DNA from: Pseudoscleropodium purum
Lineage: Eukaryota; Streptophyta; Bryopsida; Hypnales; Brachytheciaceae
Direction: 5' to 3'
Assembly (NCBI GenBank): GCA_963969395.1
Contig: OZ017803.1
Coordinates: 20,336,001 to 20,400,000, forward strand
DNA: 64,000 nt
Below are positions 20,446-53,418 of the stretch, piece after piece; position 1 is the first letter of the stretch; each line of letters opens with the position of its first letter. The notes under the pieces are model-generated. The model saw nothing but the letters and a program-made list of their open reading frames with translations. It was not told the DNA's origin and did no database searches. The translations under genes and the position numbers were made by a program.

Positions 20446-20660
20446 TCATTTCTTTTGTAATTCTTTCAAAAGAATCTGAAGTAGATTTTTTTTTGTAAGA
20501 AGAGCAACTCCTATTTGGAAAAATCCACTATTGGCTATAGTTCTATGCCTAACATTTTTAGAATCTAATAATAATATTGATCCACTTTTGGGCTTGATAT
20601 AATAGCCATAGTCTTGCAAACAAAATTCTCCACCTTTTCTTGGTGTTCCATATGAATATT

Positions 20661-31000: not shown

Positions 31001-34000
31001 GGTAGAATGCACTCACAGGTATTGAAGAGATTTGTGTCCAGTAATGTTTGGAAGAAACTGATCGAATTTGTTGCTCGAAAGGTCCCTACACAGCACAAGA
31101 AGTATTCACAAAGTCCGAATCTTATGAGGCAAAACACAGGAGTAGCTTCCTTCATTTGGATAAGCATGAAACATTCATCTCAGGTAACAGTAAAGATCAT
31201 TTGCACTGTTCTGAGGAAGAGATAGCTTTACTTACAAGTAACTTAAAGGTCCTGTTATAAGAAACGAGGTTCCATTTTCATCGGTCGAATTGATTAGGAA
31301 GGGCATTCTCCCTGTGAAGTCATTGTAAGACAAATCCCTGCATATTCAAAATGAAAATGGTCAGCAAGATGCGAAGAAATCAGGCTTCACATGACCAGTG
31401 ATTCCAATTGTGGGTTTTTCTTGTGGTCGTTTTCCTGTTTTACGTACACCATGCTTCCAAAATTGAGGAATAAGTTGATTTTCTTACACAGAAACCGCCT
31501 TGTGGAGATAGCTGAACATATCTATGGTGTAGAAGTCCCCAGAAAATAAGTTGTGGGAAACGTTGAATGTTTGCACAGCACGAAATGCATTCGATAGGTT
31601 GGTTGGAAGCCCCCCAGTCAACTGGTTATCCGCTACGTTTCTGTCACAACGATGCAAATGACATTTCATGCAATTAGCCATGATAAGGTCAGTACACCTA
31701 AAATCACCCGAATCAATATTTGGGCATGGTTCAAATTATGAAATACCGGTTGTGAGTTTGGGTTGGGTGGAAAAAATCCGAGGTGGGTGTTGATTAAGAC
31801 TTACAAGTTCTGAAGAAAGACAAATGCTGCTTGCTTCCATTTGGGAAATTTCCCTGTGATACTATTCCCATGTACATCCCTGGCAAAAAAAAATTAACTG
31901 TGGCATGTTAAAGCAAATAACAGAAAGTGGTCATACTCGTTGAAATTCAAGCATGTTCCAAAGCACCAGTATGGTGACGTTTTGAGTGCCCACAGCTTAG
32001 GAAATTCGGAAATTCAAGGGCCTTAAGCACTATAAACGAGGATCTGAGTTTTCAGCTTGGGCGGCTGAAACAGCACCAATTTCACTTACGTCTGCCCTTT
32101 TCTTTTTCTTTTTTTATAGATATGAGGAATATCAGCATTTCTACAAAACACAAGCAGCAAGAATTGAAACAACAGAATTTTTGTTACAATGATCTCACAG
32201 ATCAAATAAGCTGCCTAAGTTTTCGAATCCTTGAGGGAGTGGGCCTGTCAATCCAGGATTACTCGTCAAAGATCTGCACAATATAGAAAATTACGCAAGT
32301 GTAATCAGTTCTCAGTTGTTGCAGTTTATCTCCAAAAGGAGGCATCAAGGGTAGCATTCACTATGGGCATCTACATGGGCTGCAATAGTACTCCTTGCAA
32401 GTGCATTAGAATTTGTTGGAGATGTTATTGGTCATGAGAATTGGTAGGCCTACAGAACTCCAATGCATAGGGCACCCTCAACTTGAAGCCCCTATATGTG
32501 TTATAGCATAGTTAGAAGAACTACCCGTCAATAGAGTAATCATTCATTATGATCTTAGGACCATAATCATCCTTCTTTTTTGCCCTAATCAATGTGGTAG
32601 GTTTTAGTTGGATATGTTTGTTCCACCATGAATTCATTGTTATGATAGTATTGATGGCTTATTCTATGTTTTGTAATCAAGGTTCTTTGAACTATCCACC
32701 AAGCATGACTTATTTTGAAACATGGCTCTTTTCCACTCACAAGGTTACTAGGTTGCTGAGATTCTCAATTGCCTCTGGAATAATGCCTGAGAGGGATACA
32801 TTCACTAATGTCCTGTCATCCACACCAATTGAGAAAAACCAATTAGTTCCTTCACAAATTCTAGGGCTAAAAAAATGAATAAATTTTTAACAATAAACCT
32901 TTGATGTGAATATTCCAACATAACAATTGTTAGCCCTTGTAAGCTCACATTGTTTGCTGTAAGAAATAAAATCAACATTGCATTTTTAAATGACCAACTA
33001 GGCTTCCTTCACATGAATTTTGTTAAGCATTCTTGTACTCTTACTTAATTCCTATTTAATGAATTTGGAACTATCTAGAATGCAACAACAGATCTTTAAA
33101 GGAAAAACATCCATAATCTCCATAACTTCAAGATCACCACCCTCAAATTTAAGACAATGGACTATGTAAACCACTTAGACATCTATTCACAAGTTTAGAG
33201 ATTGAACCTTCCTAACATTTGCACACAATGTCCAAAAAACACATTCTTTGATGCATTCTTAGCACTAGCAAGTGGCAATTTTATGTATCCATAGATTAAT
33301 TAACCAATATTTGCTAGAGAGAGGTGAAGAAAATTCTTACAAGCCAGTAATCTCCAGATCCCAGACCGTAGTATTGGACTTGGTAGAATCCGCAACATTA
33401 GTTTTGGCATTGCAATACACGCCTCGCCATGGACTTTCCGGGTCACATGGCGTATTCTCGGGCTCGTTCACAAGTGCGTTCCATCCTGCCAAGTTGGACA
33501 ACACCTCTGGTGTACCGTTCCAAGCACTCCACAGTTGCTTCAATCCATACACTAAGAGTAAAAAGAAAACAGAACAAGCACACAACCACAAGCACCCCAA
33601 TCAAAACACAACCTAAGTTACAAACTATAGAATCGTAAAACCCTACTCACAACATGGTTGATTGATTGTTCCCAAGAGTCCATGAAAGAGATGCAGAATA
33701 GGTTGCCTTCGTCATTGGCTAAAGTTAGGAAAACTACTTTTTGTAGGTTTTGATACTTGAAACTGAGTTGAAAGGAGTGTGTGAAACCAAAGAATTGGTT
33801 TCATGGTGATTTCATTCATGTCAGATCAACAGTACTAACTACAAGCTGTAATGATCCCAATTCCCAAAGACAACCCTGACTCCTTGCCAAATTATAATTT
33901 TACGTACACCACTGTCACGATTTTCCCTAGCTAATCGATCTTCTTTCTCACAACTATGTGAAGGACTGTATCTCTGAGGTTCTCCACATTCCGTAAACCA

Positions 34001-34294
34001 ACGAATAACTTTGAAAACACAATTGCAAAAACCATCACTAGTAATCTGCTCTTCAGCTCAATTGTGGACTTCACAAAGTGGCAACTGTTCCAGAGCCTTC
34101 AAAAACCTTCACAAGGCAATTGAAGGGAGGGACTTACAATCAGAGGGGGCTGGCCGAAAAATGCCTGCCACTGGAGCGTCACTCGTTGCATTCCAATCCA
34201 CAGCCTCGGCCGAGTGGCTACAAAACAGAAGCAGAAGCAGTACTACAACACCCTGGAATACAAATCTGATCACCATCACTACACCAGTCCTCAC
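25001..34294 (-). CDS. LRR receptor-like Ser/Thr kinase (LRR-VIII-like), unit 2
   Basis: Unit 2 copy of the 22-exon receptor kinase; every exon is at the unit 1 coordinate plus 20461 (first exon 34294-34138, last 25334-25001). All splice borders and the reading frame are kept, and the kinase motifs [26 protein letters not shown] and APEY are present. Differences from unit 1 lie in the extracellular half. In exon 2 (33551-33341) the N-cap reads [13 protein letters not shown] instead of [13 protein letters not shown]. The exon 3 donor is GTGAGT instead of GTAAGT, and the exon 6 donor is the stronger GTAAGA. Exon 10 differs only synonymously. Because the kinase half looks identical, the copies probably signal alike, and any functional difference would lie in the ectodomain or in upstream DNA. 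Confidence 0.88.
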
Positions 34295-35572
34295 TCACTA
34301 ATTCAATGTGCACCAATTGAGCTACACTGCAACAAAAACTGGCTCAGGAAAAACGTACGGGCTCTTTTCTAAATCTAGATAACGAAAGTGGTTACGCAAA
34401 CAATCCGGTGGTATTCACGGATGGAGTTAGCAAACTAAACTCACGAGCTGTGAGAAATAACTAATAAAAGACGTTCCAACACCCAAAACACAGACCATAG
34501 TGGTAGACAGATTATCCTTTGTTTCGCAACAGGAGAAATTGATCAACAAGTGGAAGTTGTGCCAAGAAGTTGTGACAGAACCGGTTCCTCGTGCCAAACC
34601 ATCAGGGAAACTTCAGATATTCTCAAACAAGGAACCAGCTAGTTAATTGAGAGATACATAGTCTACCAGCACGTGTAAGAGCCCTATGCATGACTTTTAG
34701 CGCAAGTCGGGTTAACTTTGTTCCAGGTTGCTGCACTTCTACATTAACGAGGCTGTCCAAATCCCAAGGGAAGGAGAATCACCAGTAGATTCCGAAAGCG
34801 ACGGGGCGTAAGTGCTAGGTAGCTTCCTCGTGGAGCCAAATGTCAACTTCTTGTCGGGCCCATAGTCTTGGGAAGTTGGGACTTGGGTGCATGCAGCGCA
34901 GTATTAGGGGAATTTTTGAAGCTCCTCTACGCGGCTCATTTCTGTTGAACTTAGTTGTCTGTATTGAGATGATAAAACAGAGATTGGCCCCTGATTACAT
35001 AATACTATGAAGTGAAGCAAATGGCCCATTTTTATGTTAATTAACACCACTAAGTATAGAAGCTTATGGCCCATTTCCAACTACTTCAAGAATAACTCAT
35101 ATTTGGAGCATGGATTTCTAGATTGTAGAAATTTTCACTTGTGTGGAAATAGAGTTTGGAAGGATTCCAAAATTTTCCAAGTTTTTTTCCCTCAAAACGT
35201 AATTACACTTATTTTTTTAGCAAAGAGAGATGGTGCAAGTGCTTATATTTCCGTTTGAAGCCATGCTTATGCTTCATGATGCTGAAGATCACTTGTCATT
35301 GGTGGGTCATAGTAGGAGAGTTTGTGCACTTGATTTGCTTGAGTTTGTGTTGAGCATAAAGAACCTAACTATCAAATTGGAAAAGTATAGATACAAATCT
35401 TGATGTTGGTGCTTTGTTTAGTGGCGTTGGCAATCCATCGGGTGTATGTCAAGGTGTAGGAGGGTTGGTGCTTTGGCTAATGGCATTGGTGATCTGTCGG
35501 GTATGTATTAGGTTAAGATGGGTCATTCTATGTGTATTTTGTGCATCACATGTGGTGAGGGGGATTTTTTAG
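34295..35572. other. Upstream region of the unit 2 receptor kinase
   Basis: DNA 5' of the second receptor kinase, up to the MITE. It represents the pre-insertion state for the psaB fragment (junction 34782/34783). Compared with unit 1 it carries a ~70-bp deletion near 34694 and a 424-bp deletion near 35217. No gene is supported. Confidence 0.5.
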
Positions 35573-35854
35573 GAGGGTTGTCAGGACGTCCAGACGCGGA
35601 CACTGTGTCCGCAACGTCCGCTGATATTCGCGTCCTGGCGGATGCAATGTCCGCGTGTCCCCCGTCCGCCCATCCACCCGATTATGGCCGTCCGATTGAC
35701 GCGCGAACTGATCTGGTCCGCACGATCTGGGCGTCCACCCCGCCCGTCCGCTTTCTGACGGCGGTCGGGACGCTGCGTCCACTAGTGTCCGTGCGTTTGG
35801 ACGTCCGGAAAACGGACGCTATTTTGGGGCGGACGTTGACATTCGTCAACCTTG
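35573..35854. mobile_element. GC-rich hAT-type MITE in unit 2
   Basis: A 282-bp GC-rich insertion flanked by a perfect 8-bp duplication, ttttttag (35565-35572 and 35855-35862). Unit 1 has the empty site with one ttttttag. The ends read GAGGGTTGTCAGGACGTCC and, inverted, CAAGGTTGACGAATGTC, degenerate versions of CAGGGTTGACG. An 8-bp target duplication with CAGGG-like termini is the hAT signature. The last ~130 bp (TTCTGACGGCGG, GCTGCGTCCACT, GGACGCTATTTTGGGGCGG) match the right end of the large element at 52677 and of the MITE at 53219. It has no coding capacity. Confidence 0.93.
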
Positions 35855-36528
35855 TTTTTTAGGAGACTATTTACCTTCAAGGCAAAATTAAAAGGGCCCC
35901 TATCATTACTTAATTAGGAAAAATGGCCTATAGTATAGCATTCTATCATTACTTATAATGCCATGGTCAATGCAATTTATTGTAGGCTATATTATTTATA
36001 AGGAGAAAAAATGAAAGCAAAATTGTGAAATAATGTGAAAGAAAAATTGGTACAAAAACAAATCCCCCCTAGAAAATGACTAAAATTCAACCTATTTTCA
36101 TGCATTCTCAAACACTATGTGATGAAACTTAACTATAGTCTTGTATTAGGAAGAAAGTGCAAAATACTTTGTATTCTAACATCCTACATCAAGGCAAACA
36201 AAACCAAAAAATCATACAAATGGACATAACAATGGCATTAGAATATTTCATAACTAATTCTACATATGTCTGAAACATGTCAAACAACTTAGATTTGATA
36301 TCAATCCCATTAGGCTGAGATAGAAATGTACAGAAATTCTTTAAAGAACTTTTGAGTACCCAAATTCAATTTTCACTCCTCACTCTAATTGAACTTCCAT
36401 TGTATGTACCTACTACCTTAAAGAAGCCTAAGAAAACCAAGACAAACCATAGAACATGATTTCCAAACCAAATCATCAACAATACACATAGAACTACAAG
36501 TGAATATAAATGAGATTGCTTTAATTTG

Positions 36529-36665
36529 CAAGGTTGACGTGACGTCCGGACACGGACGTTGTATCCGCAGCGTCCGTTGACATTCACGGTCCCGACGGAC
36601 GCATCGTCCGCCGGGAACGCCCCGTCTGCTTTGACGGCTCTATTTCCCCCGACCGCCCTACCCAA
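36529..36665. repeat. Left terminal GC-rich region of the giant element
   Basis: Begins CAAGGTTGACG and continues with GACGTCCGGACACGGACGTTGT, ATCCGCAGCGTCCG and TTGACATTCACGG. These follow in the same order in both MITEs. This is the probable transposase-binding terminal inverted plus subterminal repeat region. Confidence 0.8.
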
Positions 36666-37289
36666 ACTGCCTCACGGTCACTCCCTTAATCCGTAAATAA
36701 TTAAATATTAAATGAAGTGCAATGGTTCGCGATTTGATTCATATTTTTAAATGTCATGAAATTTGTGCATATGGAAGATATTCCTCATCTCCACATTCTA
36801 TTAAAAAATTTCAACCCAAAATATGCAAATGTACAGTTACACGTATGCCCAAAAATTATATATTGCCGAAAAACACATGTTGGTCCTCTAGGAATTGAAG
36901 CACATAGGAAAAAAACTAAAACAATGTCTCTTATAAGTTGAAAGATTATAAAGTTTGACCATGATACCATGATAGTCTTGAAACTATGAAAAAATTCCAA
37001 TTCATTTTCAGAAGGCAAACTAAAAAAGTTTGTGACTTCAAATATATATATATATATATTCTATTTAAAAAATCGAGATCAATACAAATACAAACATAAT
37101 TAATATGAGCAAAATGTATTGAATTTAATATAAAATATCATATATTCTGAACTCAAAAATTTATATATACCATATAGTGTGCACATTTGGCTAATTGGAC
37201 ATATAATTTTTTTCATTCCAACTCTATATTTCTAAACTAATTTTTAATGCCTATATAACCTATTCAACTACTACTTCTGCACTACTAAT
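36666..37289. other. AT-rich spacer downstream of the kinase-like gene
   Basis: AT-rich DNA between the left terminal repeat and the 3' end of the kinase-like pseudogene, with an (AT)n run near 37041-37060. No gene is supported; it presumably holds the 3' UTR and terminator of the minus-strand gene. Confidence 0.45.
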
Positions 37290-38783
37290 CTAATATAAAT
37301 GGCGAAAATGTTCATCTGGCATCGACCAACGATATGTATTAGAAAATCGCGTAATCACATGGGCCAAACTAGTATTTTCATCGTCAGTCTTCGAAGAAAT
37401 GTGCTTTAAATAAGTATAAAACACTTTTGTAAAGTCATGAAAGGCAAATTGTGTCGCATTAGGTGTTTTAAATAGCAAGTTGAAATACGCCTTTGACATG
37501 TTGTTTCCATTCATTCGCCGAGCAATTTTTCGAATGGCATATTCTTCCGACTTATGTGAATACATCGGAATGACTTCCACATCTGCACCTGCTTTATGCA
37601 AATATGCAATACGTGGATCCACCCACCATCTCCTCTGCAAAGTCTGTTTCATCTCATCTACTGATGTGAATGTGTACAAAGACTTCATTGGCTAAGAAGC
37701 TAAGGTGGTCATGCCCCAATTGCAAACTCCAATATACACACGTGACTCATCCTCTAGAAAATGCAACAAGATGTTGTCCGGAGAAAAATCATTGTGCAAA
37801 TGTCCAGCAAGATGCACTGCATACATTATATGCATAAACGTCCATGTCAACTCCGTGCGCTTCTTCCGATATCGCCCTAAACGGTGAGCTTTTACAACCT
37901 CCTCTTCAGTTGGATTTGTATACATCAACCGAATTTGAATGTTGTCTGGATAGTCCTTATCCATATTCAACATTTGTCGAAGAGTTCCACCATTCCACCA
38001 ATACGCATAACCTTCACACGTCGTTCCGTGCACTACAGCAAATCGTATCACACCTGTGTGTGGAATTCGAACAGCTATTGATTCGTTTTGATGTTCTAAC
38101 TTTGCAAGATTGGGTCGAGTTTGGTGGTGAATGGATTTCTTTGCCGTAAACTCCCAATAAAGAAGTATTCCTAGACATCCTTCAATACGAACCTTTCGAA
38201 TCGTTGCATATCCACCTCTCATCGTTCTATCATCAATAGCAATCACGCGTACTGTATCTGGAAGTGCTATTAGGTGCCATCTGGTCCTTTCCGCTTCAGC
38301 AACTCCATCATTGCTTTTCCACCAACCAATTGAACCAACTCGATTGTGCTTTTTGGCAAATGGAGCACATCGCCCCCTAAACAAGTCCGCTTTCAGAATC
38401 ACTTCTTTAAACTGGACGTCATTGAGTTGATATTCTTTGCCATATTTAACCAAAATGACTTTGGAATTCCACAAAGCGTCATGAACCTTGTTCTCCAAAC
38501 ATTTGGTGAAGTACGTTTTATGCATTTTGTCATGCCATTTCGGAACATTCAATGCATCCAACAACATCTGTGTCATGTCTACTTTGAATTTAAACACGCA
38601 CTCCTCTTGATATCTGATGTACTTATTGTCTAAAGACAATGTTGTTTCCGATTCATAAAATTGAACGATGCGCTCGATCATAAATTTCTAGCATTCTTCC
38701 GAAGGACTTTGGCGAGCTACTTCCAAGTTCGATGGTCCCTCTCCATGTTTAAACTTCGCAACCTTCTTCTTCCCCTTTGGCAT
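37290..38783 (-). pseudogene. Divergent protein-kinase-like gene in the giant element
   Basis: A single frame of 498 codons from ATG at 38783 to the stop at 37290, interrupted by two TAG codons (38690-38688 and 37694-37692). The N-terminus is basic (MPKGKKKVAKFKHG). Residues ~190-365 resemble a protein kinase: a glycine-poor nucleotide loop (GGYATIRKVRI), a candidate ATP-binding Lys in FTAKK, a catalytic loop HNDFSPDNILLHF, and then CNWG where DFG or DWG is expected. The Asn at the metal-binding Asp position suggests loss of catalysis or a further decay mutation. The region after the second stop (MKSLYTFTSVDEMKQ...) continues the same frame, so it is one gene. It is preceded by a GC-rich array at 38965-39385. 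Substrates and role in the element are unknown. Confidence 0.72.
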
Positions 38784-38964
38784 CGTGACAAATGAAACTG
38801 ATATAGATCAAATTTTTTAATTTGAAATTAAATTCACGCGCAAGTGTCTAAAAAATTGGCAACAAGGGGGCCCCAATAAAGAACTCTTGCCTTGCCTCGA
38901 AAAGGAGCCAATGGAGGATAAACCACCAAGCTCTCCGCTCCACCTTGCATTCACAAGGGGCAAA

Positions 38965-39385
38965 TCAAAAGTGACAATGCGGACGGCCCGTCCGCCCATC
39001 TTATTGGGGTGCGGACGGCCCCAAACCGTCCGCACGATTGGACGGGCCGGGGGTGGCGGACGCATCGGCTGTCCGCCTCCCCGAAACCCTTGAGCCCTGT
39101 CCGCCCAATCGGACAGCCACGGGCGGACAAATCTGCCGTCCACCCGATCCGATGGGCAGCGGCGGACGGCCCGTCTGCCCCATCGGACGGATCCAAACCG
39201 TCCGCTTGATTAGATGGGCCGCGGCTGGCGGACGCATCAGCTGTCCGCCTCCCCGAAACCCTACAGTCGCGTCCGCACGATCTGACGGGTCGCGGCGGAC
39301 AGCCCGTCCGCCCCATCAGACAGCCCCAAACCATCCGCCCGATCGGACGGGCATGGGCAGACAAATCAAGCGTCCGGCTGATTCG
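38965..39385. repeat. GC-rich array I, upstream of the kinase-like gene
   Basis: Dense GTCCGCCC/GGACGGGC motifs on both strands. Longer repeats are visible: a ~70-bp block starting CCAAACCGTCCGC recurs at 39021, 39193 and, diverged, 39326. It lies about 180 bp 5' of the start codon at 38783. The long GC-driven open frames on both strands here are not genes. Confidence 0.8.
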
Positions 39386-39389
39386 CTTT

Positions 39390-40008
39390 ATTTTTCATAT
39401 TTGAAAATAGAATCTAAAGAAGAACCACTAATTGTCTAATTTGGACATTTCTTCATACCAATAAGAAATCATTTTAGTTTTTAGCAATCGTTGAATGAAA
39501 AATAAAAAAATTTCAAATATTCAAATAATTCAATCTTTCATAAATTAATTAGAAATACATTTATATCATTTATGAGTTTCTAAATGTAATAAACACACAA
39601 CAGTAATTTCAAAATACACACCATGCTAGTACATATTTAACCTCGAATGCTGAATTCAAAAATAGACATAATATGGCTTTTACAAAATTACATTTCTTCT
39701 TCATATTTTTATTATTTATCAAAGTCGCTTATAGCCGTATACATCAACGCTATTATAAAATAATACAATGATGTCTTCAACAATATGCTTGCCTACATAC
39801 ATACTTGGTGTACACTATTACACAACACTTTTTGAAAAAGTGAACAAAATTGTTGTTCAAAATTGTTCTATTCATTTAAAATTTTGTACTACTTCTACCA
39901 ATCTAGTGCTCTATACTTGTCGTGAGAGTAAAAATGAGAAAATTGAGCAAACACATGCTCACTATATACTTGCATGTTTTTTTATTCGAAATCTGAATTG
40001 GACTCAAA
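39390..40008. other. AT-rich spacer between array I and the novel-domain gene
   Basis: AT-rich, with no supported gene. It probably contains the 3' UTR of the minus-strand gene ending at 40009. Confidence 0.45.
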
Positions 40009-41244
40009 TTATTGACCGCTGCCTCTTCTTTGTACTCCAATGAACGAATCACCTCCGTAGTTTCCGTGATATCCACTCGGTGCACCTCCTTGTCCATAAT
40101 TTGAACCTCCAAAAGTGTGAGGAGGAATCGGAGTAGTAGGCTCTGATCCTCTTTCATTTGAAGCCTCGTAATAAGAGGCCCCATGATGCCCGTATGAATT
40201 ACTTCTAGTTGATCCCGGATAGTATTGGGTGCTTCTGTGAAGAGAGCAACTATACTTCGGGGTTACATGGTTTCCTCTACTACCTTCGGAGCCCACTTGA
40301 GTGGGCGTTGTATAATATGAACCAGATTCAGTAGACCTACTATAGTGCGTGCTACCATAGCTACCTGCTCTACCTTGAGAGCCAATTTCAGGGGGAGTGC
40401 CATAACGAAAATCAACTACACTTGAACCACCATAATGCGTGGATCCATAGCTCCCTCTTCCACCTTCATATCTATTTTGAGGATTATAACCAGAGTATGA
40501 ACCACCTCTTCCATGTTTAGATTCTCGCGTTCCATGTTCATGTCCGTAGGACCCACCATGCCTATCTTGCCGTCCACGATCTTGAAGGCTTCTGCGTGTT
40601 GCCTCTTGCATTTGTTGTTCGAATTCAATTCGTTTTCGTTCTTCTACCTACTCTTGCCTAACTCCAAATGTGACAAGCGCTTGCATATCATCGTCATCAT
40701 CGTCATCTGTTCACGCATCTTCAGCATCTCGTAGAACAACTGAAGGTTGTTGTAGATAACCTTGATTGGACCATTCTGGCATGCAATCGCTTGCGTCCCT
40801 CCACTGTGTATCTATAACGACATCCGTGCGCGTATAGTTCTCTACATTGCGACCTGTAGCGGTACGCCAGTCCACGTCCTTGTGGAGTACAATCTCTGCC
40901 CAAACCATTGCCATAACATTATAATTCATTATATTTGGTTTGGCACTTTTAATGCCAAGAACTCGATGCACTTGTGTGTATCGTTGTTTGAAGTGCTCAC
41001 TTTGGCACGTAGACATTTGTCCTTCCCAACGTGGCGCTTGGTGCTTTACACGCTCATGTGGCCAAAGTTTTTGAATGTGAGTCATTTTTACATACTTCTT
41101 GCACATTGAGCAATCCCACACTCTTGTTGGTTCTTCTTCCCATCCCGGTTCACCCACGCACAATGGATTGGCCCAAGCATCCCAATCGAACAATTGGAGT
41201 CTTCCCTTTCGATTATTTTTTTTGGGTGTTCTATCTTTTGGCAT
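40009..41244 (-). pseudogene. Novel-domain gene A with Gly/Ser/Tyr-rich tail
   Basis: One frame of 412 codons from ATG at 41244 to 40009, interrupted by TGA (40713-40711) and TAG (40650-40648). The N-terminus MPKDRTPKKNNRK is basic. Residues ~25-145 form a domain with WDCSMCKKYVKM, THIQKLWPHERVKH, SEHFKQRYTQVHRVLG, INYNVMAMVWAEIVL and VDW. The same pattern recurs in the plus-strand gene starting at 44676. A Cys-x2-Cys followed by His-x4-His makes a zinc finger plausible. An acidic stretch then leads to a tail of imperfect ~31-residue repeats (GSYGSTHY..., YGTPPEIGSQGRAG). Array II lies upstream. No known family was recognised. The product could bind DNA or act as an accessory to transposition, but that is inference. 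Confidence 0.65.
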
Positions 41245-41399
41245 GATGAAGCTGAAGCAAAGAGAATGAAACAATTAGAAAGCTTAAGAACCAAAATTTT
41301 GATTTAACTAATTAATTAAAATTTTACAAGCGTGAACTTTGTGAAAATTTGTAACAATGCCACAACAATCCTTTACTCAAAGCGAAAGGGGCGCGCAGA

Positions 41400-41765
41400 G
41401 CTTCCAATGCACTGGTCCGCCCACTCCAAAAGAGAACGATTGTTCGGAATGAGCCGTCCGCCTCTCCATATATATATGCGGACGCCCCGAGGCGGACGTC
41501 CAGATCATGCGGACCACATCAGTCCGCGTGTCAATCAGACGGCCGTACTAGAGTGGACAGGTATTGGGGCGAACGGGGCAGACGCCGGATTGGGCGGACT
41601 AGGCAGACGGAGGACGGGGTAGACGGGTATCGGGGCGGACGGGGCAGTCGGGCTGGACAGGGCGGACTCCGGATTGGGCGAACAGGGCGGACGGATATCG
41701 CGGCGGACGGGGTGGACAGGGCGGACGGGTATCGGGGCGGACGAGGCGGAAAAGGCAGACGGCTC
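41400..41765. repeat. GC-rich array II, upstream of novel-domain gene A
   Basis: Repeated GGGGCGGACGGG, GGGTATCGGGGCGGAC and related units, G-rich on the plus strand. It lies about 160 bp 5' of the minus-strand start at 41244. A telo-box-like AAACCCTAAACCTA sits immediately beyond it (41771-41784). Confidence 0.8.
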
Positions 41766-42238
41766 ATCTTAAACCCTAAACCTAATGAAAGAAATTGTTC
41801 TTTTTTCAAAATCTCACGGTATAGATGTTTAACCCGTAAAGTTTTTTTCACTAAAAACACTTCAAAAACTGTCAATAGTAGTGCAAATATCAAGTCTTGG
41901 AAGAAAAATACTTTGGGGCATATGTAACCGTAGGATCTTGTAGTAAATTAGTTGGAAAAAATGTGGAAAAATTTTTAGACAAATCCACCATTTGGATTGT
42001 AAGATATTAGATATTGAATGTTTCATTTAAGGGGGCCACTCAATTATGTCTATTAACGAACAATTGGTAGGCTAACAAACCTAACTTAGCATGTATTTTA
42101 ATATTTGTTGCAATTGTTTTAGGAATATTGTAACATAACACTATTATAATATTCTTATAAATGATATAGTACTAAATCATTTCAAAATCAACAACATTTG
42201 AATACAATCTGTCAATCTTGTCTTTCATACTCCTTCAA

Positions 42239-42240
<2 letters not shown>

Positions 42241-42293
<53 letters not shown>

Positions 42294-42296
42294 TAA
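42241..42296. repeat. (AT)n microsatellite
   Basis: An uninterrupted AT dinucleotide run of about 47 bp followed by an imperfect continuation. Confidence 0.97.
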
Positions 42297-44029
42297 AATA
42301 TATTAGATAAATCAACATGAACAAATCAATGATTATATATTTCATAGATCTATTCTTCATCAATCAAATAAGAGTGCATATGCAAATATAGACAAAGATG
42401 GTTTCTCCATTTGTTGCCAAAAAATAGATAAACAAATAGAGAAAGATATGAAGTGAATGTTACTTGGAGAATTGAAAAGAAAGAAATTGAAATACTCAAT
42501 TGCATTTTATTAAATTGGAAAATTGCATGTAGATGACATGAATTAATCTTCATAGATGCTAAACTTATACGAGTTGCATTTCAACATTTATGATTTATGC
42601 AATTGATTGAATTGAAAGCTCTTGTAATTACATTTTCAAATTTTCGATTCAATCATTTAAATTTGCAAGAGTGATTTATGATAGATTTATAACTTTAAAT
42701 GTAAAAGCATTCAATGCCTTTATGCGTTTGTTCATCAATATATTAATTTTAAATAAATAATATATATATTTTATAACATATGCATAAACCATTACATTAA
42801 GAAAAACAAAAAACTAAGAGCCAAGCCAAATAGGCTGGTCAAATGAAGAGAATAACATAATAAGAACCCTACGAGACAAAAAAAAAAGGAAAAAAAAGAA
42901 AATATCAGAAGGATTCAAAGGAAGAAACAAGATGCATTCTTGTAAGACCGTAGAATACATAATGATTTCAAAATCCAAACACAAATATATTTTCTATTTC
43001 AATGAGAGTAAAAAATGAACTACCTTGCTCTTAAAGATTGTATAATGTACATGTTATACAAAACGAACATATAACAGAAAGAGTAGAAGACATCATTTAT
43101 CATGATTGAAAACTAAAATGATTTTTTTTTTCTATGTAGAATATTTTATGAAATGTAACAATGTATTTAATTATCATAATAATTGGTAGAAATCTTTGTG
43201 CAATACTTAGAAACATTTCATTTATGTGGAATTTTTTCATTTGTTTAGGATTAAAATGGAAATATTATACTCTACAAAGTACAAACCAAAAACAATACCA
43301 CATACCTAAGTTCAAAAGTTTGCAATTGTTTCGTGAATTCATTTTGAAAACTCAAACAAAGAAATATTTTATAATCAATATCTTGTTCATTTGAATCATT
43401 TCAAAATTCAAATTCCGAATTCAATTCCTATTTATAATAGAAATTATATTTGTCAATTTTTTAGATCTTTAAACAATGAACCCTCTTTTTTAAAATTAAT
43501 ATTTAAAAACATCTGAAATAAGAATATTGGAATTACCCTTCAAAATAAATATAGCACATGTATAATGTATTCTACTCCACCAACTCAAGTAACGAATTTT
43601 TCTATGTTTTTAAGAAAAAATATAGCCATACATGATTTGAAAGTTAAAACATTGATTCTTTTTCTTTGTTTTCAAATCTAATCAAAATTTCATTAAAAAA
43701 TATGAAAGACTCGATGTTCATTTGAAGATCGTGATGCACTTTTAATGAGAAATCACAACCTTTCATTAAATATCATGAGGTTGAAATCCATTAAACTGTT
43801 ATTCTAATTATGTATTGGGGCTTTTTTTTAAAATTTCATTTGCTTACAATGAAAATGGATTTGATTATTTTTGCAAAACATTTGATTTCCTAATGAACTT
43901 TAAAAAAATCCCCACCATCTTCAGATCTTCTCGAAAGCTATTTAGAGATATAATATCAGTAAATAATTCAAACATATTCAACTTAACCACATTTTCCTCA
44001 TTCGTAAAACAATTTAGGGGAAAAAAGAA

Positions 44030-44060
44030 AAGGTTTAGGGTATAAGGTTTAGGGTTTACA
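44030..44060. promoter_or_regulatory. Telo-box-like pair upstream of novel-domain gene B
   Basis: AGGTTTAGGGTATA followed by AGGTTTAGGGTTTA, two 14-bp units carrying the plant telomere-like TTTAGGG core. They lie before array III and about 620 bp upstream of the start at 44676. Telo-boxes are known promoter elements in plants; function here is inferred. Confidence 0.45.
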
Positions 44061-44187
44061 TTTTAAAAAAAAGAAAATGACAAATTAATTACATTGATCA
44101 TCATTTAGTAGTGATTATTAGGCTGTTTTATTTTTGAAATGTTACCGCTCTTTTTGAATAATAATGGCCTCATAGGATGCACCAATT

Positions 44188-44430
44188 GACAGCTGGGCGG
44201 ACGGCGTCGGAAGGCGGACAATGCGGACAGTCCAGGCAGACGCGCCGGTCAGACGGTTGGTCGGACGGGGCGGTCGATCGGGGTAGGCGGACGGGGCGGG
44301 TGGACAGGGCGACGGGCGGACGGCGCGTCCGCTGCCGAAGCGGACGTCGTTGGTCCGCGTAGCGGACGCGAGGTTTGGGGCCGCTTTGCGCGGTCCGGTG
44401 GCGAACGGCCTCTAGGTCCGGCGGCAGACG
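44188..44430. repeat. GC-rich array III, upstream of novel-domain gene B
   Basis: Repeated GGGCGGACGG, GGCGGACAATGCGGAC and GACGGGGCGG units. It ends about 250 bp 5' of the ATG at 44676. Base composition contrasts sharply with the AT-rich flank. Confidence 0.8.
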
Positions 44431-44675
44431 ACTATAAGGGTGGAGTGACTTTTCATTTCTTCTCAGTTCAATTCTCCTTCGGTGCCAAGTTGGATGTGCT
44501 ACTATTGCTTTATGCGCTAGTTGCTCCTACGGGGTGGAGAGTTGGGGTCCTTTATCTTGTGTTACTGTGTTGCGGTTGATGCCATCACTTTTGACTATCA
44601 CGTAAGATTTTCTTATTCACTTCAATTGGTTGTTGAATTCAATTGACAATCATGAACGGCGATGGTGATTGAAAT

Positions 44676-47600
44676 ATGGATGGGGTGACTCCGGGTAGCG
44701 AAGCGAAGAAAGAAAGCAAAGTGAAGGGGGCTATACATGACCTTCGGCTTGACATTTTAAATGATCCTACAATTAAAGAAGAGAGCGGGTGGGAAGATGA
44801 AGATGCAGAGTATTGGACATCAAAAATGTACAGGACCTATGTTAAAATATACCACATTGACAAGTTGTGGCCTCAGAAGTCGCACAAGAGTCATACACGG
44901 GATTTTTGTTGTAAACCATGGACTTGCAACAACAAACATTTTGTCCATCGATCTGAAGAGGTGTGGCGTGTTCTATTCGGAAACAAGTATAGAAGTAAAG
45001 GCTATATTAATTATAGCGTGGCGTGTATGGTTTATGCGGAACTTATATTAGAGCGCAAGATCGATTGGAGCACGTTTTCGACGACAACAACTTGCCCACT
45101 TCTTCTTAAAGCCAATCAAAAGGACATTCCCGACTTGTACAACTCAGAGGGAGAAACAGAGAAAGTATTAAAAAATATTATTGAAGTGAAAACGAATGGT
45201 GTGGAGAAAGCCTCAAATGTTGAAGAATTACGGTCTGTACAATCTTCAACAAAAGCAATCAATAAAAGGTCTTCGAAAAATGTGGGGAAAGATGTGGAGA
45301 AAAATGTAGAGGCACAGGAGGGTGAAGTCCTTTCCACAGCTCCAACGTGTTTGACCTTTACACCAAATGTTGCGGTACAAACACAAACAGAGTCTGTAAA
45401 CAAAGGTAATGTTTGTACGGAACGCGGGGAAACTTCAAAAAGTAAAGTAGACGAAATCTTGGCGGAGAAAGTGGCAAAGGCTAATGCTACAATTGATAGT
45501 CTGATAACCAACAATTGTTTTGATAGTTTGGTCTACAAATCTCCGCCTCTGCATCAAGGCGTTGAATCTAGTCCAGCGTTAAGTTTAGAAAACAAAGTAC
45601 ATACGCCTCGTGGACAAGGCGTGACGATTGATAATATATCCTCATTATGGAGTTCCGAGCGTAAAAAGCGGGCGAAGGAGTTTCCGTTTACAATGTCATT
45701 GCCAAGTCCTCTACATCAAACCTTGCAAGACATGTTCAACCCAAAACAATTGGAAAATCTTTTGAAGCTCTCGATTCAGTTTGCTAACCTTCATGAAGAA
45801 ATAGGCGGATCGTCGAATCTCGATGATGGTGCTACTACTGTTCCAATGAGTCCACTTGTAGATCCAAAGAATGTTGCATATATACTTGATACAACTTTCA
45901 AGATGATGATGTCAGCTAAATTTTTAGCGCAAACTACTCCGACTTTTATGAATTTGGCCAAGGAGTTTTCTTTGATGGCATCAGAGATGTTGAAAGGTGC
46001 TATAGCATTTCAGAATCTCACGAAGATTTTCAGACCACTTTTCGAAGAAAGAGATGTTCACATACTACAATTGGTCGAATATGAGAAGAAAATTGTTGAC
46101 CTTGGAGGAGTGGAAGCAAGGTGCAAAGTGTTGGAGTTGAAATTAAAGACTTCGGAGAGTGAGGTTGAACATTTAAATCAACAATCATCGAGGCAAATGG
46201 AAGAGTTGATGAAGATGCGTAAACGGATTGCAGAATTGCAAGGGACCTCCAGAAATCCAAGTGAGGTTGCAATCTCACTAGTGATTGTACTCGGAGACAG
46301 TCAAGAGACTCAAGAGAGTGAAGATAAACTCTCTCTTCCTTTTGATAAGGCCGAAGCAAGTGACAACCCTGCCATTGTAAATGTACAAGAAAGTCACGAT
46401 ATGAGCATATTAAAAGCGACACAACAACCATCAATGGAAAAACTTTCATCCCTTTACGTGAATGCGGAGACACAAACGGAGAGTTGTGACTTTGAAGAGT
46501 TGAAGCATAAATTGGAGGAGGCAATTGAAGCAAAAGGAATCGTTGAATCCAAGTTGAATCGATTACAATTGTCCTTGGATTTGAAGAAATTTATGCCATC
46601 TAGCGGCTTGGAGTCTCGATGGTTAGCATGGGTACAAAGACTTCAAGACAGACCCTCTGTAGTATCTCGAGCAATGGCAAGTCTTCAAACATTGGCAATG
46701 GAGTCGAATGAAAATTGTGATGCCATTCAAAGCTCTTTGAATTGGTTTAAGACTATTTTTGACCAACATCCTTCTAAGGGATATATGGAAATCACATGTT
46801 GGGGAGACATGGATGCCATGTTTGAGCGGATAAACCACACAAAGAAGGACCAAACTCCACCCATCAATTGGGCCTTGGAAGTAGAGGAAGGATGGGTCCC
46901 TTACAACACACTTTCAGCACACATCAATGTGAAAGACAAGTGAGTGGTGCATGCTTGTCATCTAGCCTCTCCAATCTTGGATGGTGGTTGTAGCTTTTGC
47001 TAAGGCCTCTTCAGACCGCAAGGTGTATTAACCATAGGCCAATGTCGCCACACTTTCCATGTCACTTGCATTGTGAAAGCATCACTCATTCGTTCGGTGT
47101 GTATTGGGTGTCGTAGTCCATTGAGTGTTAAGTTCTACGAAATGTTTGGTATCTTGGAAGCTATGCCTCCAGGCCACAAGTACAATCATTGGAATCTTCT
47201 TCTTGATCAAGCGTTGTACAAATTTCAAAATTATCAACATTAGGGGAAGCCAATCCGGTGGAATGCAAATGAACAGAGGCATGATTTGTACGAGGAATCT
47301 CAACAACTATTGGATTTGGATGTGTGGATGATTCACAATAGAGAGGTAGAATTGCGAGCTCGAGGAATCGTAGATGATGCGGCTCGTGAAATGTTTTGTC
47401 GCAACATGGGGGGACATTGGAGCTTGCAACACGAAAAGTTCTTTCGTTTTCCAGATAAAAAAGTAGAGAGAGGACCAGAAGACAATTGGGTGGAGGTGGA
47501 CCGTGGAAAATAGTTCAATAAGCAGTATAAGGCATACGACCACACCCTCGTAGGTAGGGCCCTTTTATTGTCGAAGTTGAAAGAGGCTGCAAAAGTTCGT

Positions 47601-48050
47601 GCTGTCTACGATACAAATGGACTAACAAGCACAGGACATTCATCTGTAGATGTAGCAGCAGCATTTGATAGGCGCATTGGCGATATTATAGGGCATTGGA
47701 AGGCTTTCCTATTGGATGGAGACTGCCTTACAGTATGGCAAGGAAAAGGAGATGATGAAGTTGTTCAAGCGATGGTAGATCGTGTGGAGAGCAACTTGAG
47801 AACCTTGAAGACAGACGAAGTCAATTTATCACCGAAAAGAAAACAAAAAAGGAAGCGTGAAGAGGACGATGATTTCTCTCCGGAAACCAAGAAACAATTT
47901 CATAAGGTGGACATCGAAGTTCAATCTAGAGGGCGAATAGTCCGTCCAAGTCAACAACGGTCAACTCGTCAATCATCTACTAAACTCCTCGGTACAGCAG
48001 ATTTTCCTTTTGTTTTGGAAGAAGGTAGTGGTCCATCCGGTGGAAAGTAA
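44676..48050 (+). pseudogene. Novel-domain gene B with coiled coils and a RING-H2 finger
   Basis: A single frame of 1125 codons. The first 755 are open (44676-46943), then TGA 46941, TAA 47001, TAG 47241 and TAG 47511 interrupt the rest, which stays in the same frame to 48050. Residues ~30-135 repeat the domain of gene A (YVKIYHIDKLWP, NKHFVHRSEEVWRVLFG, INYSVACMVYAELIL, IDW). Coiled-coil segments lie near 450-530 and 600-640. Beyond the first stop there is a RING-H2-like pattern, CSFC, QCRHTFHVTC and CIGC, with standard Cys/His spacing. The C-terminus is basic (SPKRKQKRKREEDDD), like a nuclear signal. An ATG at 44652 in the same frame is cut by TGA at 44670, so the original start may be there. 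If once intact, it may have been a nuclear ubiquitin ligase; that is inference. Confidence 0.75.
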
Positions 48051-48344
48051 GATTTGAGGAGAATTTTGTTTTTTAAAAACAATGGTCCTTTCATTGTTTA
48101 AAAACAAAAAAGAATGTGAAAGATTTAGATTTTAAAAAGATCGTATAGGATTCAATAGTGATATTGGAACTATGTTTTCATATATTTTGTTTATACATAT
48201 ATATTTATATATAAAGATGCTATATTTTCATTTGCGTAAAAAAATATTTTTATATGTACATCTTATTTTACGTGGATGCATTCATTTTTGATTATGTAAC
48301 ATTCAAATTACATAACAATATAAAATTTTCTAATGACTAATGGC

Positions 48345-48490
48345 AATGCGAAGTTCGCCCTGTCCACCGTGTCCGTCCGCCCCGTCTGCTCTGTACGCCC
48401 GACCGCCCCGGCCGCCACGTTCGACCGCCCCGTCTGACCGCCCTGTCCGAACGCCCGTCCCGTCCGCCTGTCCGCTTTAGCCCCGTGCAC
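48345..48490. repeat. GC-rich array IV, upstream of the transposase
   Basis: Repeated GTCCGCCCCGTC, CCGACCGCCCC and GTCCGCCTGTCCGC, C-rich on the plus strand. It lies about 330 bp 5' of the transposase ATG at 48820. Confidence 0.8.
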
Positions 48491-48511
48491 GCCGTTGGTT
48501 GTTTTTGAATG

Positions 48512-48550
48512 TAAACCCTAAAATATAAACCCTAAAATATAAACCCTAAA
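48512..48550. promoter_or_regulatory. Telo-box-like triple repeat upstream of the transposase
   Basis: Nearly three head-to-tail copies of the 14-bp unit TAAACCCTAAAATA, each with the plant telo-box core AAACCCTA. Located between array IV and the transposase start, about 270 bp upstream of the ATG. Possible promoter element. Confidence 0.5.
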
Positions 48551-48819
48551 TTTTCTGAAGGGGATTATAAATGTTAGAAGAGAAGCTTTTGTATTCACTC
48601 TCGAAAAACCGAACACTAAGATTTCCAAAGGCTATGAGCTTCAATTTATTGTGTCTCTTATTTGATAATGCATAGTTTGGTGAACGGGGGGGCTTTGATT
48701 TTCAAAGCTTTGTGTGACTAATTTCATTGATATTGTATACATTGTCACGTTGTGGGTTTCAAATTTAAAACATTTTATTGGTTTCTTTTGAAATTGAGGT
48801 AAAACATACACTTGTCAAT

Positions 48820-51800
48820 ATGAGGGCCAAACCGATGGGGGATTTCTCTCCTTGGTATAGTGTGGCACATGATGGTAAAGTAAAATGTAGGCTTTCCAAG
48901 GCGGTCATAGCAAGAAAGCTCGGCTGTTTGTTGAGCCACTTAGGCTATCCTAGGCCTAAAGGTATATGTGATAAAGGGGTGAGCCTTTGTCTACGATTAC
49001 CAATGGCAGTTCGAGATTTATTTCGGCATTGCGAAAGAGTTTTTCCAAAACGCGTTGTAGTGGACAATGTGGATGGCAACCTTAGTCCTTCAGATGTGTA
49101 AGAGTTCTCGGCCGGAAAGGCTGTGTTGCATTCTGACCACGAAGACTCTTGTCCAGTGTCCAAAGAATTGGTATCAATGGTATATGCCACAACTGAAATG
49201 ACTTTGAGTATAGAAGCTTCTGGTGAACGTGAAACCCCAAGGGCATCAAGTTCTAGGCCTCAGAGGCAAGATAGCTTAGTGAATGGGTTTGAAAAAAGTC
49301 ATAGACGCAAATTACATTCAGTGTGGGCAAATTCTTTTTATTCCGCAAACATACCATTTTCCGTGGCTCGAAATTCAGCTTTTAAAGAAGCAGTGAAGAA
49401 AACAGCTGTGTTCGGTAGGCCATAGATTCTTCCCTCATACTATGACCTTCAATACAAATTGTTGAATGAGGCGAAGACCAACATTCAGACACAGTTGAAT
49501 GCACGAACCGAAGATAACATTCGAAAATTTGGAGCAACATTGTCCATTGATGGATGGAGCTCTGTGACTAATCAACCTCTCATCAATGCCATGCTTGTAT
49601 CATCCACATGTGAAGAATTTTTTGGATCTGTGGATACAAGTGGTTGTAAAAAAATGCGGAGTACTTGACAGCTGTGTTGGAAAAGTTTATTGAACAAGTG
49701 GGGTTCAAGAACGTCGTGTTAATAACTATGGATAATGCTCCCGTGAATCCGTCCGCATAGAATGTAATATCTGCAAAATATCCTCATAGTTTTTACCAAG
49801 GGTACGTGGTACATGCATTGAATTTATTGTTGAAGGATTGGGCTGCACAGAAATGGATTGCTTCCAAATTGGATAAAGGAGTTCTTGTAGCTAAATTTAT
49901 CAGGAAGAGACATATGCCGCTAACTCTATTACAAAAGTATTCGCCAAATCTTGGTCTCTTGATGCCTGAGTATACAAGGTTCGCTTCTAAATTTATCATG
50001 ATGGAACGTTTGACAAAATTGAGAGGAACATTGGAACAAACGGTGGTAGATCCGCAATGGGTTGAGTGTGTACATACTCTCAAGAAGAAACATGGAGCCA
50101 AAGTCCATCCAAAAGATTTGGCCTTAGCGGTGAAGAAAATTGTTCTTGATGACCATTTTTGGAATCGGTCCATCAATTATGTGGAGATGGTTGAACCAAT
50201 CATATGTGCACTCCACGATTTGAATTCAAAATCACCATGCATGGGGAAGGTGTTGCATATCATGAGGAAGTTAAAGAAGCACGTCAACGGATTACAAAGT
50301 CCACCATTTTGTTTGCTAGAAGAACTTGCAATTTCATTGATACAGTCTTTTTATGCCGGAAGAAGAATGGTGGACAACGATCTCCAATTAGCCACAACTC
50401 TTTTGATACCATATCTTTTTCATGACAAAGAGCTAACGGATGACGCAGATACAATGTCAGGATGTAAGAAAGTTTTGGAGAGAATATGTAAACTGGATGA
50501 ATATGTAGCAATGGTGAAGGAATTGGTGACTTTTCGACACAAGGAACCTCCATTCCACAATATGTTGAATCCGGAAGAACAAATGTTGTCCGCGCATGCT
50601 TGGTGGGATTTCGAAGGTGCATGTGGCAAGTTTATAGCTCCATTAGCGAAGTGGATATTGACTCAACCGGTGTCATCATCTTATTATGAACGGAATTGGA
50701 GCAACTATTCTTTTGTTCACAACAAATCTCGAAATAAATTGAAGTCGGAGAGAGCAGCGGATTTGGTGTACGTGTATATCAATTCCAAAGTATTAAACGC
50801 ATCGAAGGAAAAAGATGAAAAAAAATGGTATAATGATAATGTGGATCCAATGGAATCAAAGGATTCAGATAGGCCGACGTTAGAAGACGATGATGACGAT
50901 GATGACGATGATTTGGAAAGGACCTTTTCAACTGTAAATGGTGGGGATGACTTCAATTGTGCGACAACGTGGGGAGATAAAGACGTTATGCAAGACTTTC
51001 CCAATTTGGTGAATGATACGCATGATTATCATTTAAACCGCAAGGATGTTGTTCCCGACAATGCAAACGATGCATATACCTTTTATGAAGACAAGGACAA
51101 TGTAGAGATACAGGAGAATGTACCTTCTTTAACTGCATATTGTAATGGAATGGGATTCTTGAATAGCAAAAACATTCTATCGAAAAAGGCAAACGCTATT
51201 GCCAAAGAGGTGAAAATCAATGAGAATGCTATTGGTGATGATGGGAGAAATGAAGAAGTTTTAATTTCTCAATCTCCATCTGTGGCATTAAATGTAGTGC
51301 AAGGAAACAACAAAAGAAAAGATGCGGTTACGAAGGTAGACATTCCAAAAGATGTGGGCAACAATAGTGGTGATGAGGGGGAACTAAATATTGCGGTACA
51401 GAAAAATAGTGATTCAGTTGGGATGGCAGTCACAAATTTGACAATTGTGAAGAGTGATAAAGGAAAAGAGCCAATGAAGTCAATTTTTGAAGGACCGAGA
51501 TCTAGTGCTCTTCCACCACTACCGTTAAAGTCTGTTAGCACACAATTGGATGATTCTCAGAGCTTTGGATATGGAAAACACCTAATGAACATTTTCAAAG
51601 AAATTTCTATAAGCAGTAATCTACAGAAAGTAGCGTCATCACCTACAAGCCTAAATGATACGGATAGTGATCAGATGCCATTGGCATCTTTGCGTGCTCG
51701 CATTTTAGGAAAAAGAATGGCGCAAGAACCCATCAAATCAACAAACGGCACTCTATTACTTCAAAAGAAAGCCAAAGTGGAGATAACCATTCATGGACAT

Positions 51801-52165
51801 GTCGACCCTACATCGAGATTGATGGTTCAAGAATCAAGTAAGGTGAAAGCGAAAAGAGAAATGCAACCTTTTGCTATCTCTCCGGTGAAGAATAGGACCC
51901 CTCTTGATGAAAATGTTGCTACTTTGTCAAATAAAAAAATAAAAAAAATTCCTATTCAAAAAGCCTTTAATCGTTCTATTAGAGTAAAAAAGAAAAATTT
52001 AATTCGAAAGAAGGGAGTAAACCTACTTCGAGAGAAGACTTGAAGGAGACAACGATACTTGATTCCAACAATGAAGATGACTCCGATAATGAAGATTTTG
52101 AACAGAGAGTTGTAGGAGAGAGTAGTGAGGCTGAGGTTAAAGGAGATGTGGATTGGCGTCCATAG
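48820..52165 (+). pseudogene. hAT superfamily transposase, decayed
   Basis: Starts at ATG 48820 (MRAKPMGDFSPWY). A BED-finger-like segment follows (VKCRLSKAVIARKLGCLLSHLGY) with Ser where the second Cys is expected. Then comes a DUF659-type region: NIPFSVARNSAFKE, LSIDGWSS with the first catalytic-type Asp, NAEYLTAVLEKFIEQVG, and ITMDNAPVN with the second. The C-terminal hAT dimerisation region reads LAKWILTQPVSSSYYERNWS, NYSFVHNKSRNKL and SERAADLVYVYIN. An acidic run and a long charged tail follow. Breaks: TAA 49099, TAG 49423, a frame change in an A7 run near 49645, TAG 49758, and another frame change near the 3' end (one frame stops at 52043, the other at 52165). The 745 codons from 49806 to 52043 are open. 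It cannot make active transposase as read. Confidence 0.88.
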
Positions 52166-52499
52166 GAATTGTGGAGATGTGAATTTAGATGTTTGATTGT
52201 TTAGTTATTGATGATATATGGAGCTCATGTTAACAAATGACAATGGTTTCTTCAATCATTTTATTATAAAATTGTTTGTTTATTGATGATATACATCTCG
52301 GTGGATTTTAAAGTGATTTTGTTTCTAAATCAAAAAAATTAAAAATATAATTCATATTTTAGCTTTTACGTAAATAGTGATATACAACTCTATTGAATCG
52401 CAATTGCAATATAAGAAAAATCAAAATCCAAATGACTTCACTCTTAATCTCTCATTGGTGAAAACAATCAAAACAAAAAACCCAAAACGGGTTTTCTAA
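52166..52499. other. AT-rich 3' flank of the transposase gene
   Basis: AT-rich DNA between the transposase and the right terminal repeat. It probably holds the 3' UTR and terminator; no motif was assigned. Confidence 0.45.
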
Positions 52500-52677
52500 G
52501 CTGCCCCGTCCGTCCGCCCTGTCCGTCTGCTCCGCCTGTCTGCCCTGTCCATCCGCTCCGTTCGTCCGCCCCGCTCGTCCACCTTCTGACGGCGGGAGGG
52601 ACGTTGCGTCCACTGGCGTCCAGACGTCCGGGTTTCAGACGCTATTTTAGGGCGGACGTAGAGATTCGTCAACCCTA
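52500..52677. repeat. Right terminal GC-rich region of the giant element
   Basis: GTCCGTCCGCCCTGTCCG-type repeats followed by TTCTGACGGCGGGAGGGACG, TTGCGTCCACTGGCGTCC, GACGCTATTTTAGGGCGGACG and the terminal ATTCGTCAACCCTA. The same order occurs at the right ends of the MITEs (35854 and 53418). Confidence 0.85.
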
Positions 52678-53218: not shown

Positions 53219-53418
53219 CAGGGTTGACAGGACAGTCGGACGTCCGGGATGTCCGAACGCGGACGCTGACATTTGCGGACGCTGTCCGCCTGTCCGCCCC
53301 GCCCCGCCCATCCGCCTTTCAACGGCGGGAAGGACGTTGCGTCCGCTGGCATCTATGAGGACGGACGTCCAAGTTACGGACGCTATTTTGGGGCAAACGT
53401 ACTAATTTGTCAACACTG
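53219..53418. mobile_element. GC-rich hAT-type MITE
   Basis: A 200-bp element with termini CAGGGTTGACAGG and, inverted, CAGTGTTGACAAA, flanked by the near-perfect 8-bp duplication gtaaaaac (53211-53218) and gtacaaac (53419-53426). Subterminal sequence matches the large element and the MITE at 35573 (GACGTCCGG, GCGGACGCTGACATTTGCGG, GGACGTTGCGTCCGCTGG, ACGGACGCTATTTTGGGGC). It has no coding capacity. Confidence 0.92.

Follow-up and report, generated by a model that had tools for sequence, protein, structure and literature searches.

Do a hAT transposase gene and the three other long genes that stand beside it in a moss genome belong to a single transposon, or have they come together by chance? 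This question is raised by positions 36529 to 52677 of a 64,000-nucleotide stretch, hereafter the window, of contig OZ017803.1 of Pseudoscleropodium purum (assembly GCA_963969395.1), which corresponds to C47:20336001-20400000 in the genome searched here (313 Mb, 52 contigs). Well-studied plant hAT elements such as Ac possess one gene. The element in the window is about 16 kb long and carries, from left to right, a kinase-like gene (minus strand), a gene encoding a protein with a novel domain (ND; minus strand), an ND/RING gene (plus strand) and a hAT transposase gene (plus strand). All four genes can be read without introns, and all four are broken. A comparison with copies elsewhere in the genome revealed that the kinase, ND, ND/RING and hAT genes lie between one set of termini with constant order and orientation, that the family has produced 8-bp target duplications and that two shorter forms exist: form A with the kinase and hAT genes, and form B with the kinase, ND and ND/RING genes and without the hAT gene. 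The element is very probably a four-gene DNA transposon of the hAT superfamily, and the window copy is best read as a dead four-gene copy whose right side has been rearranged. Its features are as follows:

36529 to 36710, plus strand: left terminus, which starts with CAAGGTTGACG at 36529, and GC-rich subterminal region; 39 other scored places; one GTCCGCC
37290 to 38783, minus strand: kinase-like gene, 497 codons, two in-frame stops
38950 to 39440, no strand: GC-rich motif array upstream of the kinase gene; ten GTCCGCC, either strand
40009 to 41244, minus strand: ND gene with a Gly/Ser-rich low-complexity tail, two in-frame stops
41400 to 41780, no strand: GC-rich motif array upstream of the ND gene; ten GTCCGCC
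41781 to 44210, no strand: central spacer, present in copies of all three forms; about 91-95% identical (blastn) in most fetched copies
44180 to 44450, no strand: GC-rich motif array upstream of the ND/RING gene; four GTCCGCC
44676 to 48050, plus strand: gene encoding ND, a coiled coil and RING, 1124 codons, four in-frame stops
48340 to 48500, no strand: GC-rich motif array upstream of the transposase gene; two GTCCGCC
48820 to 52165, plus strand: hAT transposase gene (DUF659, Dimer_Tnp_hAT) with stops and frame breaks
52500 to 52677, plus strand: GC-rich subterminal region and right terminus, which finishes with CGTCAACCCTA at 52677; 39 other scored places; three GTCCGCC

Recurrence of the element and its shorter forms

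The genome searches scored the best candidates only, and all place counts, in which the window is included, are therefore lower bounds. The left end (201 bp) is present in at least 40 places (best 40 of 1604 candidates), the 39 outside the window being 84-89% identical, and the right end (200 bp) also occurs in at least 40 (best 40 of 2566 candidates). Conserved termini around four long genes had been proposed in an original prediction made from the window sequence alone, and each end does recur in at least 39 other places. The terminal sequences of the family, CAGGGTTGAC...GTCAACCCTG, are short and inverted and show small variations among the ten copies in which both ends were placed; the heptamer GGTTGAC is not significant by itself (six seen, 5.6 expected). 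Matches to the transposase were found in at least 59 places (58 outside the window; best 59 of 1142 candidates), matches to the RING protein in at least 59 (58 others at 88-90%; best 59 of 1454 candidates) and matches to the ND protein in at least 150 (149 others at 88% identity or more; best 150 of 1244 candidates).

Ten loci selected by their transposase (E1 to E10) were read, of which E1 to E3 had been picked for a known left end at a fitting distance and E4 to E10 mostly for long open frames. Form A, which consists of the left end, the kinase, the transposase and the right end in conserved order and orientation, was found in nine of the ten, E9 being without left end and kinase; six of the seven loci picked without prior knowledge of the left end (E4 to E10) are of form A. 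It measures 9.6-10.1 kb in eight copies, and nine form A copies are devoid of the pieces that correspond to 39.4-41.5 kb (ND gene) and 44.2-48.4 kb (RING gene) of the window, with the spacer retained. Form B was read in three loci (R1 to R3), picked by a RING match with a left end at a fitting distance, and all three contain the left end, kinase, ND gene, spacer, RING gene and right end without a transposase; R1 and R2 are 11.7 kb long, and R3 is further damaged. The gaps of both forms run from block to block, i.e., the missing pieces begin and end in or beside the GC-rich arrays.

The complete arrangement was followed through the junction between the RING and transposase genes, with window positions 47850-48750 as the query. 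Among 40 scored places, 13 including the window match at least 894 of 901 bases, and the remaining 27 matches end at query base 560-625, as expected of form B. The gene content of the 12 junction places outside the window was read in two fetched copies, F1 and F2, and partly at C40. Both F1 and F2 contain the kinase, ND, RING and transposase genes in the order of the window, and F1 has a left end that is much diverged; at C40, near 6.01 Mb, the kinase, the junction and the right end lie at roughly fitting distances. Another junction place of the four-gene type is located at C47:20311980, about 24 kb before the start of the window. In the match lists for the junction, transposase, RING and ND, several copies occur as pairs with equal or near-equal scores in opposite orientation, 7-75 kb apart (e.g., C49:8609814-/8620576+, C46:1161358-/1182462+ and C47:18783372-/18805904+). 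In the case of C1:12223229/12239709, no second full copy exists of a 1-kb piece from the right flank, and this pair is therefore not a simple mirror of the whole region on that side.

Movement of the family is recorded in its flanks. The 8-mers on both sides agree in all eight positions in E2, E4, E6 and E7 and in seven of eight in E1, E3 and R2; random pairs of 8-mers reach seven of eight with a frequency of 0.0008. Target duplications of 7 or 8 of 8 bp are present in 7 of the 13 copies with both ends read (7 of 10 measured). The original prediction had named as support four genes in one order between one set of termini with 8-bp duplications. This describes the family, but most copies read are shorter, only F1 of the two fetched four-gene copies has a recognisable left end, and the window copy, F1 and F2 are all without a duplication. 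The termini were also said to be shared with two neighbouring miniature inverted-repeat transposable elements (MITEs), which proved correct:

35567 (left edge by eye) to 35854, no strand: separate MITE with the termini of the element; TTTTTTAG on both sides
53219 to 53418, no strand: separate MITE with the termini of the element; flanks GTAAAAAC and GTACAAAC, which agree in seven of eight positions

For the MITE that ends at 35854, an empty site was found at the matching place in a tandem duplicate, at about position 16292. This tandem segmental duplication comprises window positions 1-16966 and 20462-36528 with a period of 20461 bp, and the identity of its copies is 99.6% in the first 14.2 kb and 91-96% in the rest; a 600-bp piece is found again one period ahead of the window (C47:20332506), and an older copy (83%) starts near 61677. 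The left end of the window element coincides with the exact stop of homology to the tandem duplicate (36528), after TTAATTTG. Its expected right flank is complete only in two other tandem copies, and so either the right side of the element has been rearranged or its halves stem from two insertions. Right of the element and outside its bounds, an open frame of a different kind (175 aa, MVCPVIPFDLAHRVQLEEDL...) is located at 57192-57719 on the minus strand.

Encoded proteins, motif arrays and age of the copies

The transposase of E3, which is intact, contains DUF659 (E 2e-30) and Dimer_Tnp_hAT (E 9.4e-9), both above the Pfam cut-off, and this confirms the hAT assignment made earlier; zf-BED (E 0.061) lies below the cut-off. 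Intact frames of 1121 aa are found in E3 to E6. For the kinase gene, intact frames of 497 aa are present in E6 (L019) and E8. Judged by its sequence, the protein is classed here as kinase-like: the Pkinase scores of the three proteins scanned are 22.1, 20.1 and 26.7 bits vs. a cut-off of 31.7 (E 1.1e-4 for L019), the kinases in the PDB are matched weakly (best E 0.0005 with a profile, 0.01 with a single sequence), and database labels assign PF00069 to 29 of 61 relatives. The alpha-kinases constitute a different kinase family. Residues K215, E234, D332, N337 and D355 are invariant in 17 aligned kinase-like proteins, down to 27% identity, and presumably represent the Lys of AxK, the alphaC Glu, the Asp and Asn of the catalytic loop and a DFG-like Asp, respectively. 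In the window copy, Asn replaces the Asp of the DWG motif. Among the kinase relatives are two with 49% and 43% identity from a moss, Ceratodon purpureus, and some clusters of relatives have 126, 85, 54 and 47 members; most clusters are small, and cluster size does not equal copy number. One Ceratodon relative, P0046, stands for 126 member sequences and is encoded on a 110-Mb contig with the locus tag KC19_VG, which we take to denote the V sex chromosome. A close relative (73%), P0012, is filed under a Bacilli metagenome bin and is most likely plant DNA inside that bin.

In the copies read, the ND protein and the RING protein share 32-37% identity over their ND parts. Of the 150 listed ND places, 23 (counted by hand) are free of stops in the 177 matched residues and have an open frame that reaches at least 420; R2, one of these, was read and possesses an open ND frame of 420 aa. 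There are 29 ND relatives, and in an alignment of 30 ND proteins C48, C80 and H84 are invariant and H56 is nearly so; as a guess, Cys48, His56, Cys80 and His84 may form a putative zinc site. A structural model of ND has a confident, mostly helical core (blocks of 85-93; mean 79.2). The ND piece of the window gave no Pfam match, and hence no DUF1985. RING domains score above the Pfam cut-off in homologues, namely zf-RING_11 in P0004 (1121 aa; 27.9 vs. 27) and zf-RING_2 in P0008 (30.3 vs. 27.3), and the broken RING piece of the window scores below it. Of the accessory genes described originally, i.e., a kinase-like gene, an ND gene with a low-complexity tail and an ND/RING gene, all recur in copies, and all are broken in the window.

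The element contains 30 copies of the motif GTCCGCC, counted on either strand, and all of them lie within six GC-rich noncoding blocks, which are situated at both ends and upstream of each gene. Base-shuffled blocks contain a mean of 0.7 and a maximum of 3, and the coding parts contain none. The shorter GTCCGC is also clustered in E6, R2, F1 and F2. The ratio of observed to expected CpG is 1.17-1.59 in the blocks and 0.72-0.96 in the genes, compared with 0.49 in window positions 1-36528 and 0.64 in the last 10.5 kb.

The window copy is old and dead. In an unrooted tree of the hAT genes, the window copy clusters with F1 and F2 (support 0.997), separate from the form A copies, with distances of 0.077 between the F copies and the window copy, 0.061 between the F copies, 0.058 between E and F copies, 0.071 between the E copies and the window copy and 0.038 among the E copies. 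A tree of the spacer, also unrooted, separates form A from form B together with the four-gene copies, F2 being outermost in the latter group, and a tree of the kinase part resolves little. Changes from the majority are mostly C>T and G>A (878 of 1160 in hAT, 357 of 519 in RING and 197 of 257 in ND), an excess that is expected of methylated, silenced copies. The median dN/dS, with live and dead copies mixed, is 0.48 for the kinase (91 pairs), 0.66 for hAT (78), 0.84 for ND (15) and 0.56 for RING (15).

Proposed mechanism and rival explanations

The ancestor would have been the four-gene form, from which forms A and B would have arisen by internal deletion between arrays, followed by multiplication. 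Because the family has common termini and target duplications, the hAT transposase probably moves the MITEs and every form of the element by a cut-and-paste mechanism. The three further genes recur, and the kinase is retained in both short forms, from which we infer that they serve the element. Recurrence also supports the giant cargo-bearing hAT lineage that had been envisaged, but most copies read belong to two shorter, complementary forms, and 'accessory genes' is a better term than 'cargo' since the kinase is kept in both of these forms and its relatives are conserved over a large divergence. As to what the genes do, it is possible, and suggested here tentatively, that the GTCCGCC arrays, which lie at both ends and in front of every gene, are binding sites for the ND proteins; these would bring the kinase and, as a ubiquitin ligase, the RING protein to the control regions of the element, where both would act on host factors against silencing and so keep the element expressed. 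The idea is modelled on VANC, which achieves this by other means for the VANDAL elements of Arabidopsis. A further-reaching version, which we regard as rather unlikely, is that the four-gene hAT ancestor broke into two complementary and mutually dependent half-elements with the kinase in both: form A would give the transposase to form B, and form B would give an anti-silencing pair, i.e., an array-binding ND protein and an ND-guided ubiquitin ligase, to form A, in trans on the GTCCGCC arrays.

Several observations weigh against the four-gene transposon and the role suggested for its accessory genes. No intact four-gene copy is present among those read, since the window copy, F1 and F2 are all broken. 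The left end of F2 was not found in the fetched stretches, the matches of which stop at window position 36733. Flanking 8-mers agree in only six of eight positions in E10, three in E8 and two in R1, and the flanks of E5, R3 and F1, read by eye, show no duplication. The same holds for the window copy: its flanks TTAATTTG and TCGTAATC agree in two of eight positions. Neither F1 nor F2, the other four-gene copies read, shows a duplication. That the four-gene form came first is the likelier reading and not the sole one because the trees are unrooted. The dN/dS values support selection weakly, least for ND, and a stop-free RING gene was found in none of six copies examined (three to seven stops each). 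The ND model gave no significant match in the PDB or among viral models, and both DNA binding by ND and an action against silencing would rest on analogy. In addition, form A has multiplied without the ND and RING genes in cis. As for the arrays, the blocks had been selected by eye for their GC-richness before the motifs were counted, and 5 of the 35 GTCCGCC motifs in the whole window lie elsewhere than in the element.

How far do other explanations account for the same data? That unrelated insertions were nested by chance between two terminal repeats would fit the missing target duplication of the window copy and a neighbourhood with MITEs and tandem duplications; however, the genes recur between the same ends in constant order and orientation, the RING-hAT junction is found at 13 places, and the four genes were read together in F1 and F2, as had been predicted, which refutes a chance nest and makes its probability negligible. 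A closer competitor regards form A as the true element, to which the ND and ND/RING genes of a separate form B were added when A and B recombined through their shared arrays, the four-gene copies including that of the window being the recombinants. Ends, kinase and spacer are indeed common to both forms, the breakpoints lie within repeated arrays, the spacers of the window copy, F1 and F2 group with form B, and the two sides of the window copy do not make one insertion site. Recombination is unlikely all the same, as the hAT genes of these three copies group together (0.997) apart from form A, on longer branches, and are not young pieces of A, the junction is common to 13 places, and the three form B copies read are without a transposase, so that form B needs an outside source.

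The remaining alternatives accept the gene set and concern its use. Genuine cargo that serves the host and not the element would be in line with the kinase relatives in another moss and with kinases and RING proteins being, as is generally known, common signalling parts. This is very unlikely: all genes lie inside a high-copy, decaying repeat, the kinase is retained in both short forms, and some outside relatives belong to the large clusters of 126 to 47 sequences mentioned above, although the size of a cluster does not give the copy number and most clusters are small. As to function, the main rival, compatible with a four-gene hAT element, is a direct role of the accessory proteins in transposition (transposome assembly, target choice or timing) and not against silencing. 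The motifs are found at both ends besides upstream of the genes, and there is a precedent in TnpA of En/Spm, a second protein that binds subterminal repeats. Yet the ends have a lower motif density than the regions upstream of the kinase and ND genes, and a direct role appears somewhat doubtful. The four-gene hAT transposon with accessory genes of its own is the reading preferred here.

Comparison with known systems

With other members of the hAT superfamily (Ac/Ds, Tam3, hobo), the element shares DUF659 and the hAT dimerisation domain, short inverted termini, 8-bp duplications and the presence of shorter derivatives and MITEs. It differs in that three recurrent genes are added, in its length of 9.6-16 kb and in the motif arrays upstream of each gene. 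No described moss hAT element, and no hAT element that combines kinase-like, RING and ND genes, is among the literature matches listed, and a 2018 survey of plant hAT elements, in the part of its text that was available, reports none in Physcomitrella (PMC6027215). If a hAT lineage has retained a kinase-like gene, a RING protein and the paired ND domain, the accessory tools of plant DNA transposons would be extended by a new set. Such a lineage would also bring in a domain, ND, with a confident model and no structural match. With its complementary forms A and B, the question of which accessory genes act in trans can be addressed.

In fungi, DNA transposons that carry extra enzymes have been described, according to the available part of the source, namely hAT7 elements with TET/JBP and TET-bearing IS3EU elements with an alpha-kinase gene opposite to the transposase gene (PMC12730594); the words RING and ubiquitin are absent from the main text of that paper. 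The moss element resembles these in that both are multi-gene DNA transposons with hAT among the carriers; unlike it, they are fungal, and the duplications of hAT7 comprise 7 bp, as far as the available text goes. A parallel for the arrays is offered by the VANDAL elements of Arabidopsis (VANA, VANB and VANC), which belong to the MULE superfamily. From what could be consulted of the source, the binding motif of VANC is arranged as repeats in the noncoding parts of VANDAL21 (PMC5735166), and the moss element is likewise a DNA transposon with accessory genes and a short motif repeated in its noncoding regions. Its transposase, however, comes from another superfamily, with hAT and not MULE domains, and its ND piece is without DUF1985. 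The element would thus give a second testable case, beside VANDAL, of motif arrays that are spread through a transposon.

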